From Pseudomonas paralcaligenes (GTDB lineage: Bacteria; Pseudomonadota; Gammaproteobacteria; Pseudomonadales; Pseudomonadaceae), in assembly GCF_019655855.1 (NCBI RefSeq), contig NZ_BPFX01000027.1, positions 1 through 64,000 on the forward strand: a stretch of DNA of 64,000 nt, in the 5' to 3' direction. Below the pieces are notes generated by a model. It was not told the DNA's origin and did not search any database. It worked only from the letters and a program-made list of their open reading frames with translations. Positions 29,347-56,143 of the stretch are shown here, one piece after another (the first letter of the stretch is position 1; each line of letters starts with the position of its first letter). The translations under genes and the position numbers were made by a program.

Positions 29347-29363
29347 GGAAAACGCTCCGAATA

Positions 29364-29379
29364 CTGTATACATGAACAG
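29364..29379. promoter_or_regulatory. LexA (SOS) box upstream of the radical SAM gene
   Basis: CTGTATACATGAACAG fits CTG-N10-CAG and extends to a near-perfect dyad (ATACTG ... CAGTAT). It lies 18 bases upstream of the start at 29346, so repression by LexA and induction by DNA damage are expected. Confidence 0.8.
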
Positions 29380-29411
29380 TATTCGGATTTGCCCCCGTAC
29401 GCCAGCGGCGG

Positions 29412-41120: not shown

Positions 41121-41864
41121 CTACTCGAACTGCTCGAGACGCTGGCGATCGAGGATGCGGATGACCTTCGCCTGCTGGGTGATGATGCCTTCGTCGATCA
41201 GGCGGCGGATGATCCGCGAGAAGGTTTCCGGCTGGATCGACAGGTGCCCGGCGATCAGCTGCCGGGCCATCGGCAGCTCCAGCTCCGGTTCCTCGCTCTG
41301 GCTGCGCGCCAGCTGGGTGAGCAGGTAGCGCACCACGCGGTGGGTGGCGTTCTTCAGCGACAGCGTCTCGATCTCGTTGATGCGCTGGTGCAGGCGGATG
41401 CACAGCTTGCCGAGCAGGGCGAAGGTCAGCCGCGAGTTGCCCTGCAGCAGGCGCATGTAGGTGGTGTTGGAGAAGCGGTACAGCTGCACCGGGCCGAGCG
41501 CCTGGGCCGAGGCCACGTAGTCGGGGGTGTCCATCAGCATCATCGCTTCGGCGAAGGTCTGCCGCTCGCCGATGACCTCGAACACCTTCTCCTGGCCGTC
41601 CGGCGTCAGGCGGTAGATTTTCACCGCGCCGGCGATGACGAAGAAGAACGCGTGCGCCGGCTCGCCCTGCATGAACAGGATGTCGCCCCTGTCCAGGTTG
41701 AGCAGCTGGCTGTCGGCGAGCAGTTCGTCCAGCTGCTCGTCGGACATCGGCTCGAACAGGTGGTGGCTGCGCAGGATCTGGTGGTGCACGCGGTGCAGCC
41801 CCATGGTCGGGTCCTGGCCGCCCGAGGTGGCGATCATCCGGGTCGGGATGGTGTTATCGAGCAT
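41121..41864 (-). CDS. dnr: Crp/Fnr family regulator Dnr-like (NO-responsive)
   Basis: 247 residues. A cyclic nucleotide-like effector domain (DRGDILFMQGEPAHAFFFVIAGAVKIYRL) is followed by a helix-turn-helix with QPETFSR, the ExxSR signature that reads TTGAT half-sites. No N-terminal cysteine cluster is present, so it is not an iron-sulfur Fnr/Anr but fits Dnr, which senses NO through heme and activates denitrification genes. It would bind the TTGAY-N4-ATCAA boxes upstream of nosR, norC and norQ. Its start overlaps the second regulator's end. Confidence 0.85.
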   Translation of the reverse strand: MLDNTIPTRMIATSGGQDPTMGLHRVHHQILRSHHLFEPMSDEQLDELLADSQLLNLDRGDILFMQGEPAHAFFFVIAGAVKIYRLTPDGQEKVFEVIGERQTFAEAMMLMDTPDYVASAQALGPVQLYRFSNTTYMRLLQGNSRLTFALLGKLCIRLHQRINEIETLSLKNATHRVVRYLLTQLARSQSEEPELELPMARQLIAGHLSIQPETFSRIIRRLIDEGIITQQAKVIRILDRQRLEQFE

Positions 41865-42561
41865 GGTCGGTCTCCGGTGGTTCGGCGTAGCGGGCGATGC
41901 CGTCCAGGTCGAGCAGCGCCACGTGCTGGCGCCCCAGTTCGAGCAGTCCGCGTTCCTTCCAGGCGCTGAGCAGGCGGCTGACGGTGTGCAGAGTGGTGCC
42001 GGTCATCTCCGCGAGGTTCTGTCGCGACAGCGGGAAATCGATGCTGACGCCGGTGGCCGTGCTGCGCCCGAACTGCTGCGCCAGGCGTAGCAGGGCATGC
42101 GCCAGGCGCTGCTCGACGCGCTCGGTGGACAGCTCGCGGATGCGCTGGTGGGCATCCTGCAGGCGCTTGCCGACGGCCTGCACCACGTGTTCGGTCAGGT
42201 GCGTGCAGACCCGGCTCAGCGGCTCCCACTGGGCCGAGGGCCAGCGCAGCGCGCAGCTGTCCTCCACGGCGACGGCGGACGCCGGGAAATGGCTCATCGC
42301 CATGGCTCGGGCGATGCCGAACAGCTCGCCGCTGCATACGTAGCGCACCACCACGCGCTCGCCGGCCGGGGTCAGCTGGGAGATCTGCAGGTGGCCGCCG
42401 AGCAGGAAGAAGAAATGCCGGGCGGGCTCGCCCTGCTGGAAGACGAATTCGCCCTTGAGGAAGTGGCATTCCTGCGCGTGCGCCAGCGCTTCCCTGAGCT
42501 CGCTGTCGCTCAGTGGCGAGAACAGAGGCAGGCGTGCTATCAGCTCGAGCTCGGGTGGCAT
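41854..42561 (-). CDS. Second Crp/Fnr family regulator, divergent from nirK
   Basis: 235 residues. The effector domain (KGEFVFQQGEPARHFFFLLGGHLQISQL) is followed by a recognition helix with TLHTVSRLLSAW. The normal ExxSR glutamate is replaced by His192 (HTVSR), which should change DNA specificity away from TTGAT. It is transcribed away from nirK, with a TTGTC-N4-GACAA palindrome between them, and it overlaps dnr by 11 bases. The start ATG at 42561 (MPPELELIARLPLF) is preferred. Its signal is not known. Confidence 0.85.
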   Translation of the reverse strand: MPPELELIARLPLFSPLSDSELREALAHAQECHFLKGEFVFQQGEPARHFFFLLGGHLQISQLTPAGERVVVRYVCSGELFGIARAMAMSHFPASAVAVEDSCALRWPSAQWEPLSRVCTHLTEHVVQAVGKRLQDAHQRIRELSTERVEQRLAHALLRLAQQFGRSTATGVSIDFPLSRQNLAEMTGTTLHTVSRLLSAWKERGLLELGRQHVALLDLDGIARYAEPPETDHAR

Positions 42562-42650
42562 AGGGCACCAGATTGGGGCAGTGCGGCGGATGAGCTGATC
42601 GTAGCGCGCCGCTCGACTGCACCGGTGCGGTATGTTGTCGCTGCCCACCC

Positions 42651-42674
42651 CTTCTTTGTCCCAGGACAAAGAAG
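42651..42674. promoter_or_regulatory. Palindromic operator between the Crp/Fnr gene and nirK (TTGTC-N4-GACAA)
   Basis: An 11-base arm CTTCTTTGTCC is repeated exactly inverted after a two-base centre. In Crp/Fnr terms it is TTGTC-CCAG-GACAA (42656-42669), 55 bases before the nirK start. No TTGAT-type box was seen in this 167-base interval. Confidence 0.7.
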
Positions 42675-42728
42675 CCGGCGTCGCGATGCCCTGCAATGGT
42701 GTCAGCCAACCTAAAAAGGGAAGACGCC

Positions 42729-43814
42729 ATGAAAGCTTTCAAACCCCTGCTGATCGCCAGCGCCATCGCCCTGTGCTTTTCCAGCACCTCGCTGCTTGCG
42801 GACACCACCGACGGCCTGCAGCGGGTCAAGGTCGATCTGGTCGCGCCGCCGCAGGTGCATGCCCATGAGCAGGCCACCACCAGCAAGCCCAAGGTCGTGC
42901 AGTTCCGCATGGTCATCCAGGAGAAGAAGGTGGTGATCGACAACCAGGGCACCACCCTGCAGGCGATGACCTTCGACGGCTCCATGCCCGGCCCGACCAT
43001 GGTGGTGCACGAGGGCGACTACGTGGAGCTGACCCTGGTCAACCCCGCCACCAACGCCATGCCGCACAACATCGACTTCCACGCCGCCACCGGTGCCCTC
43101 GGCGGCGCCAAGCTGACCCAGGTGGCCCCGGGCGAGGAGGCGGTGCTGCGCTTCAAGGCCGACCGCAGCGGCACCTTCGTCTACCACTGTGCGCCGGAAG
43201 GCATGGTCGCCTGGCACGTGGTCGCCGGCATGAGCGGCACCCTGATGGTGCTGCCGCGCGAAGGCCTGAAGGACCCGGACGGCAAGCCGCTGCACTACGA
43301 CCGCGCCTACACCATCGGCGAGTTCGACCTGTACATCCCGAAGGACGCCGACGGCAAGTACAAGGACTACCCGGACCTCGCCTCCAGCTACGCGGACACC
43401 CGCGATGTGATGCGCACCCTGACCCCGACCCATGTGGTGTTCAACGGCAAGGTGGGTTCGCTGACCGGCGAGAACGCCATGACCGCCAAGGTCGGTGAGA
43501 CCGTGCTGTTCATCCACTCCCAGGCCAACCGCGACACCCGTCCGCACCTGATCGGCGGCCACGGCGACTGGGTCTGGGAGACCGGCAAGTTCGCCAACGC
43601 GCCGGAGAAGAACCTGGAGACCTGGTTCATCCGTGGCGGCTCGGCGGGCGCGGCGCTGTACACCTTCAAGCAGCCCGGGGTGTACGCCTACGTCAACCAC
43701 AACCTGATCGAGGCGATGGAGCTGGGCGCCGCCGGCCACGTCAAGGTCGAGGGCGAGTGGAACGACGACCTGATGAAGCAGATCAAGGCTCCCGGCCCGA
43801 TCACTTCCAAGTAA
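42729..43814 (+). CDS. nirK: Copper-containing nitrite reductase
   Basis: 361 residues reducing nitrite to NO in the periplasm. Signal peptide ([16 protein letters not shown]) then two cupredoxin domains. Type 1 copper ligands are His113, Cys154, His163 and Met168; type 2 ligands are His118, His153 and His324. The catalytic Asp116 (in HNIDFH) and His273 (in RPHLIGGH) are present, so it should be active. The start chosen, MKAFKPL, has AGGGA upstream. It is followed by nirV. nirS-type genes are absent from the window. Confidence 0.95.
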
Positions 43815-43824
43815 GGGCGTGGCG

Positions 43825-44547
43825 ATGAGAGCACTGCTGGCAGGCGGGTTGCTGGTGCTCGGCGGCTGTATGCCGGCCACCGGCATCGACGAGAGCGAAT
43901 GGGTGCGGATCGCCGCCGGCACCGCCCATTACCAGGCCGTCGACGCCAGCGGCGCCGCCATCGAGGAGCGCAGCGACGGCTTCGCCATCATGCGCCGCCA
44001 GGTCAGCCAGGCGGAGTACGCGGCGTGCGTCGTGGCGCAGGCCTGCATGCCCCTGGACGGCGCGCTGCGCCAGGCCGAGGCGCCCGACCTGCCGGCGGTG
44101 GGCATCAGCTGGCTGGACGCCAGCGCCTACGCCCAATGGATGACCCGGCGCACGGGTGTGGAGCATCGCCTGCCCCGCTACGCCGAGTGGGTGCTGGCCG
44201 CCGGCGAGGCTTTCGAGGACGAGCCGCCGCAGGTCTTCGACGATGCCCGCAACCCGGCGCAGCGCTGGCTGGCGGAATACGACCGCGAGTCCCGGCGCAA
44301 GCCGCTGGACCCGCGCCCGCTGGCGTTCGGCAGCCAGGGCCACAACGGCAACGGTCTGCTCGACGTGGCCGGCAACGTCTGGGAATGGACCGACAGCTGC
44401 TTCGGCCAGGGCGAGTTCTGCGGCATCCGCGTCGCCGCCGGGCAACATCCCAGCGGCCTGTCCGACTTCGTGCGCGATCCCGTCAGTGGCGCCTGCTCGG
44501 TGGGGGTGCCGCCGAGCAATCTGGGCTTCAGATTGGTACGCGATTAA
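43825..44547 (+). CDS. nirV: NirV-type lipoprotein (formylglycine-generating enzyme/SUMF1 fold)
   Basis: 240 residues. The lipobox LGGC (Cys15) follows a short hydrophobic leader. The rest has the SUMF1 fold: VSQAEYAAC, PAVGISWLDASAYAQWM, RLPRYAEWVLAA, GNVWEWTDS and LGFRLVRD. NirV follows nirK in many denitrifiers and probably supports maturation or function of the reductase, but its activity is unproven. A GTG six bases upstream is an alternative start. The gene begins 11 bases after nirK. Confidence 0.9.
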   Translation: MRALLAGGLLVLGGCMPATGIDESEWVRIAAGTAHYQAVDASGAAIEERSDGFAIMRRQVSQAEYAACVVAQACMPLDGALRQAEAPDLPAVGISWLDASAYAQWMTRRTGVEHRLPRYAEWVLAAGEAFEDEPPQVFDDARNPAQRWLAEYDRESRRKPLDPRPLAFGSQGHNGNGLLDVAGNVWEWTDSCFGQGEFCGIRVAAGQHPSGLSDFVRDPVSGACSVGVPPSNLGFRLVRD

Positions 44548-44648: not shown

Positions 44649-45101
44649 TCAGAGCCAACAGGCATCCCAAAGCGGATAATCGCCAATACGCTCTACCAGA
44701 CCTGCTCGCAATGGATTGGCAATGATGTAGCGGGCAACAGCTCGAAGGTCTTCCTCCCGGCGCAAAGCCCGGTCATGAAAGCCCTGCTGCCACAGCACAC
44801 CCGAGCATCCGATGCTCCGGTTGATGTGTCGCGAGCTGTTGTTCTTGATCCGCCGCATGAGTCTGTCCAGCGGGCGGTCGCGCAGTTCGACCAGCCAGTG
44901 CAGGTGATCGGGCATCACCACCCAGGCCAGCGAAGTGACCCAACCGTCATCGTTGGCGGCGCGTAATTCCGTTACGAGCAGGCGACCCAGATGGAAGTCG
45001 CTGAAGAATGGCTGGCGCTGATAGGTGGTGGTGGTCAGCAGGTAGGGGCGGCCGGGCTCCGAATGGCGGCCAAGGAGCAGGCGGTGGGATTCGGCGGGCA
45101 T
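44649..45101 (-). CDS. REP-associated tyrosine transposase (RAYT)
   Basis: 150 residues of the Y1/IS200-like HUH nuclease fold. VVMPDHLHWLVEL carries the His66-x-His68 metal motif, WQQGFHDRALR is the RAYT-specific segment, and Tyr125 in VARYIIANPL is the likely nucleophile. RAYTs mobilise REP/REPIN sequences in trans. It is bracketed by REPINs at 44549-44630 and 45185-45250, sits between nirV and tatE, and is probably functional since no motif is broken. Confidence 0.9.
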   Translation of the reverse strand: MPAESHRLLLGRHSEPGRPYLLTTTTYQRQPFFSDFHLGRLLVTELRAANDDGWVTSLAWVVMPDHLHWLVELRDRPLDRLMRRIKNNSSRHINRSIGCSGVLWQQGFHDRALRREEDLRAVARYIIANPLRAGLVERIGDYPLWDACWL

Positions 45102-53595: not shown

Positions 53596-53609
53596 TTGAC
53601 CGCAATCAA
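53596..53609. promoter_or_regulatory. Dnr/Anr-type box upstream of nosR
   Basis: TTGAC-CGCA-ATCAA on the plus strand, equal to TTGAT-N4-GTCAA on the nosR strand, 64 bases before the nosR start. It fits the TTGAT-N4-ATCAA consensus with one base difference. It lies in the 321-base gap 53533-53853, which otherwise holds only a REPIN. Confidence 0.75.
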
Positions 53610-53676: not shown

Positions 53677-53757
53677 GTGGGAGCGGCCTTGGCCGCGATG
53701 CTTTTCTGCTAGCCCTATTCGCGGCCAAGGCCGCTCCCACAAGGGCCGCTCCCACAA
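53677..53757. repeat. REPIN plus extra half-copy upstream of nosR
   Basis: GTGGGAGCGGCCTTGGCCGCG and inverted complement, followed by a second CCGCTCCCACAAGGG tail duplicated in tandem at 53746-53757. Confidence 0.85.
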
Positions 53758-53853
53758 GGGTTGTTCCTACGCAAACGGGGCAACCGACCCTGCGGCCGGT
53801 TGCCCCGTTCGTTCACAGGCGGGCCGGTTCGCCACCGGCCCGCGTCGTCGTCC

Positions 53854-54251: not shown

Positions 54252-54265
54252 TTGACCGCAATCAA
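54252..54265. promoter_or_regulatory. Dnr/Anr-type box between the c551 gene and norQ
   Basis: TTGAC-CGCA-ATCAA. It is identical in its core and N4 spacer to the box at 53596-53609. It could serve both the divergent c551 gene (start at 54168) and norQ (start at 54348). Confidence 0.75.
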
Positions 54266-56129: not shown

Positions 56130-56143
56130 TTGATTGCCATCAA
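56130..56143 (+). promoter_or_regulatory. Dnr/Anr box upstream of norC
   Basis: Perfect TTGAT-TGCC-ATCAA, 58 bases before the norC start. It is the best match of the three boxes and fits Dnr activation of norCB. Confidence 0.85.

Follow-up and report, generated by a model that had tools for sequence, protein, structure and literature searches.

A putative NnrR-type box upstream of nirK in the Dnr-type denitrification network of Pseudomonas paralcaligenes

Results

Organization of the nirK locus

In the window (the whole 64,000-nucleotide stretch of P. paralcaligenes DNA analysed here), the interval 42562-42728 is the gap between a Crp/Fnr regulator gene on the minus strand and nirK on the plus strand (Table 1). 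The gene 3' of nirK is called nirV-like below. The ATG of dnr overlaps the end of the regulator gene, designated nnrR in this study (stop codon, 41854-41856), by 11 nt; the two genes thus probably form one operon.

Table 1. Features of the window considered in this study
Feature	Position	Strand	Basis
dnr	41121..41864	-	PDB 3dkw 'DNR protein', 320.7 bits, residues 23-247
nnrR (Crp/Fnr regulator with HTVSR helix; diverges from nirK)	41854..42561	-	Pfam cNMP_binding + HTH_Crp_2; NnrR clade in tree
11-bp perfect dyad with NnrR-type core (TTTG-N8-CAAA, 42655-42670; TTG-N8-CAA, 42656-42669)	42651..42674	.	Inverted-repeat search
Putative -10 TGCAAT of nirK	42692..42697	+	Spacing kept in window-type promoters
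nirK, copper nitrite reductase	42729..43814	+	TIGR02376, 541.5 bits (cut-off, 296.3)
nirV-like (formylglycine-generating-enzyme domain), 3' of nirK	43819..44547	+	PF03781, 114.7 bits
Dnr-type box before nosR, TTGATTGCGGTCAA on minus strand	53596..53609	-	Motif search
Dnr-type box before small cytochrome gene upstream of nosR	54252..54265	-	Motif search; CGACH haem motif in gene
Dnr-type box TTGATTGCCATCAA before norC	56130..56143	+	Motif search

The gap holds an 11-bp inverted repeat, CTTCTTTGTCC-CA-GGACAAAGAAG, whose arms (42651-42661 and 42664-42674) are 100% complementary; it is the longest of the six inverted repeats listed for 42500-42800, in agreement with the initial annotation, which had singled it out as the strong dyad of the interval. 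Perfect 11-bp arms with a spacer of 0-8 occur at six places in the window versus 0-2 per shuffle (12 first-order Markov shuffles of the window); with the letters read by eye, four of the six places are terminator-like (A-run/T-run) and one is LexA-like. Mismatch-free TTTGTC-N4-GACAAA was found at one place in the whole genome (5.47 Mb), and the box is the sole TTG-N8-CAA site in 42500-42760.

The centre of the box (42662.5) is 29.5 bp upstream of the first base of TGCAAT (42692), and TGCAAT or TGAAAT with identical spacing is present in all five window-type promoters. In a second lineage of the family (see below), 15 of the 17 promoters have a hexamer starting with TAT at a distance of 28.5-29.5 bp from the centre of the box (exceptions, L034 and L042). 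Class II Crp/Fnr activators are centred at -41.5, which matches the 29.5-bp distance from box to -10. A sigma-70 scan found no full promoter for nirK; this fits activator dependence but is no proof of it. Just 5' of the box, GTTGTCGC (42634-42641) is invariant across the five aligned window-type promoters and is perhaps part of the nnrR promoter.

Elsewhere in the window, a LexA-like palindrome, CCGAATACTGTATACATGAACAGTATTCGG (29357-29386), lies between two minus-strand frames; inspection of the cysteine motif by eye suggests that the frame downstream is a radical-SAM gene. An open reading frame at 44649-45101 presumably resembles REP-associated transposases, and 53680-53770 holds GC-rich repeats of the GTGGGAGCGGCCTTGGCCGCG type.

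Identity of the divergent regulator

The recognition helix of the divergent regulator reads GTTLHTVSR, and that of the dnr product reads QPETFSR. In a tree of 60 rows, the window protein was placed inside a 35-row NnrR clade (support, 96/95) that includes members from Sinorhizobium, Bradyrhizobium and Alcaligenaceae, with the DNR rows and the LAVETVSR or Anr-like proteins outside. For the rows from S. meliloti and B. diazoefficiens, the NnrR label was taken from linkage to nirK, from PMC6710368 (papers are cited here by PMC number, as excerpts) and from general background; the records themselves do not carry such a name. Among the 120 relatives listed, identity was 50-58% except for seven close proteins, and the named ones were mostly from Alcaligenaceae and alphaproteobacteria.

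The initial annotation had read HTVSR correctly, and regarded it as a changed Dnr-type helix. That interpretation was not borne out: a plasmid tblastn search performed without the helix pattern yielded three translated regulators (Sinorhizobium meliloti, Chelatococcus and Aminobacter), all with HTVSR and all in the one NnrR clade. HTVSR was also invariant across 30 aligned relatives, and the 22 regulators of the family have HTVSR (21/22) or HSVSR (1/22, L023). Note that HTVSR is a feature seen here and no published criterion for NnrR, and that the helix count around the scanned regulator loci (see below) was excluded as evidence, being circular (the scan pattern was GTTLHTVSR; YTVSR in L098 and L100). 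R. sphaeroides NnrR was not among the plasmid matches listed (60 of 242 records), and no NCBIfam family reached its cut-off for the nnrR or dnr product.

The first cysteine of the window regulator is residue 32 (by eye), so it has no FNR-type N-terminal cysteine cluster; such a cluster is described as absent from HcpR, DNR and NnrR in the excerpted text of PMC1274295. Tyr93 is important for the activity of R. sphaeroides NnrR (PMC8510549, excerpt), and the position of Phe92 in the window regulator, where the NnrR rows have Tyr (28/35) or Phe (7/35), may be the equivalent one. As judged from its sequence, the regulator belongs to NnrR and is no Dnr whose specificity has changed. The dnr product gave a full-length match to a DNR of known structure (3dkw_A, 320.7 bits), presumably that of P. 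aeruginosa.

The conserved box upstream of nirK

For the family of the window, 398 genomes were evenly drawn and searched for the regulator (E <= 1e-30) and nirK (E <= 1e-80). The regulator was found in 22/398 and nirK in 44/398, all 22 being within the 44 (regulator in 0 of the 354 genomes without nirK); norC was also present in all 22, with a Dnr nearby in 22/22. DNA upstream of nirK was taken from 45 loci, one for each of the 44 genomes plus the additional nirK of G348. TTTG-N8-CAAA was present within 420 nt of the nirK match in 22/22 loci with the adjacent regulator versus 3/23 without it (at the usual place in L208, elsewhere in L195 and L197); the shuffled rate was 0.0016. The outer pair is T.A in all 22 boxes with NnrR, and TTGAY-N4-RTCAA occurs in 0/22 of these nirK promoters. 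Exact TTGTC-N4-GACAA, proposed by the initial annotation as the recognition sequence, was found in one of the 22, the window itself, and is therefore a single case of a looser site. What stood of the proposal is that the box type differs from that of norC and is kept with the regulator. The annotation had named loss of the palindrome from nirK promoters bearing this regulator as a refutation; within the family, the proposal passed this check when the box is read as TTTG-N8-CAAA, present in every such promoter, instead of as the exact TTGTC-N4-GACAA.

A second set was collected around related regulators with the scan pattern GTTLHTVSR; of 573 loci, 80 were retained, covering 1.25 Mb. TTTG-N8-CAAA gave 129 matches versus 6 for the reversed control, and was present at 66/80 loci. 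TTGTC-N4-GACAA showed no enrichment over the 1.25 Mb (5 matches versus 11 for the control), and was found within 600 bp of nirK at 3/80 loci (L077, L080 and L097). The commonest inner dinucleotide was CG (99 of 238 half-sites, from 119 distinct sites), with TC in 20/238; thus, the inner bases of the window are a minor variant. In 44 named-record loci with regulator and nirK (L076 was left out, its upstream DNA being too short), TTG-N8-CAA was upstream in 43/44 and the full TTTG-N8-CAAA in only 22/44.

The published consensus is ctTTGcgnnnncgCAAag for NnrR and CTTGATnnnnATCAAG for DNR (PMC1274295, excerpt). The window sequence at 42654-42671, CTTTGTCCCAGGACAAAG, fits the ctTTG-N8-CAAag frame of the NnrR box, with inner bases tc/ga that do not match the published cg/cg. 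Across the conserved boxes, the inner bases appear to follow the published NnrR consensus (CG being commonest near related regulators), and the outer T versus C of the two consensuses is what distinguishes nirK from norC here.

For other targets in the same genome, three further exact TTTGYN6RCAAA sites were found versus 6 for the reversed control, two of the three being inside open frames, 3' of their first ATG. The third, a TTTGCG..AGCAAA-type palindrome (L324, C14:147618-147633), is directly 5' of the ATG of a 111-residue frame. This placement is odd for an activator; the site is possibly a further NnrR site or a chance match.

Dnr-type boxes and the second lineage

The mismatch-free TTGAY-N4-RTCAA sites of the window (53596, 54252 and 56130) precede nosR, the small cytochrome gene and norC, as the initial annotation had described for the nos and nor genes. 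Among close norC promoters of the family, CTTGAT-N4-ATCAAG was present in 27/27 (22 of those genomes with NnrR), a count that omits four distant norC-like matches (36-41%). A nosR match was found in 17/44 genomes, 16 of them close (matches at ~40% were left out of the box reading); a TTGA-type box was 74-100 nt 5' of the match in 7/16, and the nearest was ~510-590 nt 5' in 9/16. Dnr-type control of nosR is less clear in the second lineage.

The 17 clusters of this lineage have nirK, nirV-like, nnrR, ytfE-like and dnr genes in this order; nirK, nnrR and dnr were found in 17/17, and the nirV-like and ytfE-like genes are given from L027 and L028 only. TTTG-N8-CAAA precedes nirK in 17/17 clusters, and only nirK has an NnrR-type box. 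CTTGA[TC]-N4-CTCAAG was found 5' of nnrR, and CTTGAC-N4-[AG]TCAAG between nnrR and dnr, each in 17/17 and each with a C.G outer pair; L033 has an additional site within nnrR. The site before nnrR combines one TTGAT-type and one TTGAG half, and is therefore less purely Dnr-like than that between nnrR and dnr. On its right side, the nirK box often reads CTCAA, like the boxes of nnrR, so that what differs in this lineage is the left half together with the outer pair. L266-L269 have an additional Dnr-like gene of lower similarity (~43% to the window Dnr), with TCTTGTC-N4-[AG]TCAAGG (a TTGTC half and a Dnr-type half) upstream in 4/4.

nirK loci without NnrR

Each of the 23 nirK loci that lack a neighbouring nnrR (L190-L212) still carries a TTG-N8-CAA site, with the left half TTG[TC][TC] in 21/23; the inner bases are therefore no diagnostic for NnrR. 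L211 and L212 have a true TTGAT-type site. In the 22 nirK genomes without NnrR, the NnrR query gave no further match above 30% identity (best E, 2.8e-22), and norC is absent from 17/22. The outer pair is C.G in 5/5 NnrR-less genomes that have both norC and a close Dnr, as would be seen if the nirK site there had passed to Dnr; it is mixed in the remaining 18 loci without an adjacent nnrR (C.G in two). L210, the second nirK of the NnrR genome G348 (90%), lies away from nnrR and has a box ATTG..CAAG without the outer T.A. A class-wide nirK survey gave 18/369 genomes above the cut-off, mostly relatives of 31-38%, which are poor promoter controls.

Phylogenetic analysis

In the NirK tree (55 rows; no roots were inferred for any tree), the window group, which also contains loci without NnrR, was placed beside Alcaligenaceae and was separate from the second lineage. 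For NnrR, the tree grouped the second lineage with Rhizobiaceae (99/97). Forcing both Pseudomonad NnrR groups together was weakly rejected (p-AU, 0.032, for groups picked after inspection of the tree). These results suggest that nirK and nnrR reached the family at least twice. When corrected for kinship, the link between NnrR and the box is suggestive only: among five independent pairs, about four agree, none opposes and one shows no difference (p = 0.125).

Discussion

We consider it likely that the palindrome is an NnrR site, that nirK arrived at least twice together with nnrR and this box, and that norCB (here also nosR) stayed on Dnr. From the sequences, their conservation, co-occurrence and relationships, we infer that an NnrR homodimer would bind the box near -41.5 and activate nirK(-nirV). 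nirK would have come from NnrR-using bacteria in company with nnrR and the box of NnrR type, and norCB, and here nosR, would remain on the resident Dnr via CTTGAT-N4-ATCAAG boxes. With nirK on NnrR and norCB on Dnr, nitrite and NO reduction would thus use separate transcription factors, an assignment that is well supported. The annotation had suggested a different regulator and a different signal for nitrite reduction; the former is supported, and the latter is unsupported because NnrR (PMC8510549) and DNR (PMC1274295) are both NO-responsive in the excerpted accounts, so that NnrR and Dnr probably both report NO.

Control of nirK by Dnr (or Anr) alone via a degenerate box, with NnrR acting elsewhere, is improbable. 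TTG-N8-CAA is kept in all loci without nnrR, the C.G outer pair of the five NnrR-less genomes with close Dnr and norC is that of Dnr boxes, so that Dnr may read such nirK sites, and other NnrR targets are possible since L324 touches an ATG. However, nnrR is confined to nirK genomes, the nirK outer pair with NnrR is always T.A, and TTGAY-N4-RTCAA is missing from the 22 nirK promoters with NnrR yet present at norC in the same 22 genomes. The evolution of a new Crp/Fnr specificity for TTGTC-N4-GACAA in the window lineage, as the initial annotation proposed, is far less probable: the dyad of the window is perfect and the exact palindrome recurs near nirK at three of the 80 related loci, but it is found in one of the 22 promoters with the regulator and below the control level around related regulators, and HTVSR is common to the alphaproteobacterial regulators retrieved without the helix pattern. 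Least probable, and nearly negligible, is a terminator or RNA hairpin instead of an operator; 11-bp arms with a 2-nt gap could make a cruciform or hairpin, but the dyad sits between divergent starts, no terminator-like site was found in 42520-42760, and conservation tracks TTTG-N8-CAAA at a fixed spacing to the -10, not the pairing of the arms.

The NnrR reading places the locus close to the alphaproteobacterial NnrR regulons (Rhodobacter sphaeroides and Bradyrhizobium), which share the regulator clade, the HTVSR helix and the TTTG-N8-CAAA box, and in which nirK and a nirV-like gene are likewise linked to the regulator (in Rhizobium records, a nirV-like gene overlaps the regulator match). Here, in contrast, the host is a gammaproteobacterium, the inner bases are TC/GA instead of CG, and norC and nosR have boxes of the Dnr type, whereas in alphaproteobacteria nor, too, is served by NnrR (PMC1274295 and PMC6710368, excerpts). 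The Pseudomonas DNR regulon (CTTGATnnnnATCAAG, PMC1274295) is similar in that Dnr is present, the norC box matches and the nosR box nearly does; it differs in that nirK here lacks a DNR box, whereas the DNR species described in the excerpt have nir in the regulon. In B. diazoefficiens, FixK2, not NnrR, is reported to activate nirK directly, and NnrR serves nor (PMC6710368, excerpt). The FixLJ-FixK2-NnrR cascade of that species likewise combines a pair of Crp/Fnr regulators within a single denitrification network, but their nirK and nor roles look exchanged here. In the second lineage, nnrR stands behind a CTTGA..TCAAG box, and a cascade is therefore likely. That, in the window lineage, NO-bound NnrR turns on both nirK and nnrR-dnr, so that Dnr, nor and nos wait for NnrR, is a rather doubtful extension; if true, this NnrR-first order would be the reverse of that in the second lineage.

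The locus appears to combine known parts in a new way, as an NnrR module within a Dnr-type network, with no new DNA specificity and nothing pointing to a new signal. Among titles and abstract openings of the open-licence literature, we found no paper on a split between nirK on NnrR and nor on Dnr in Pseudomonas. Whether NO or N2O escapes from cells is decided by the choice of regulator that turns on nitrite reduction, relative to the reduction of NO and N2O. Here the enzyme, its regulator and its box would form a module that moved with its wiring intact, apparently on two occasions in this family, and such a transferred module makes the assembly of a denitrification network testable by single-gene deletions. 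The outer T.A versus C.G pair suggests a simple mark by which NnrR and Dnr promoters may be sorted in the family.
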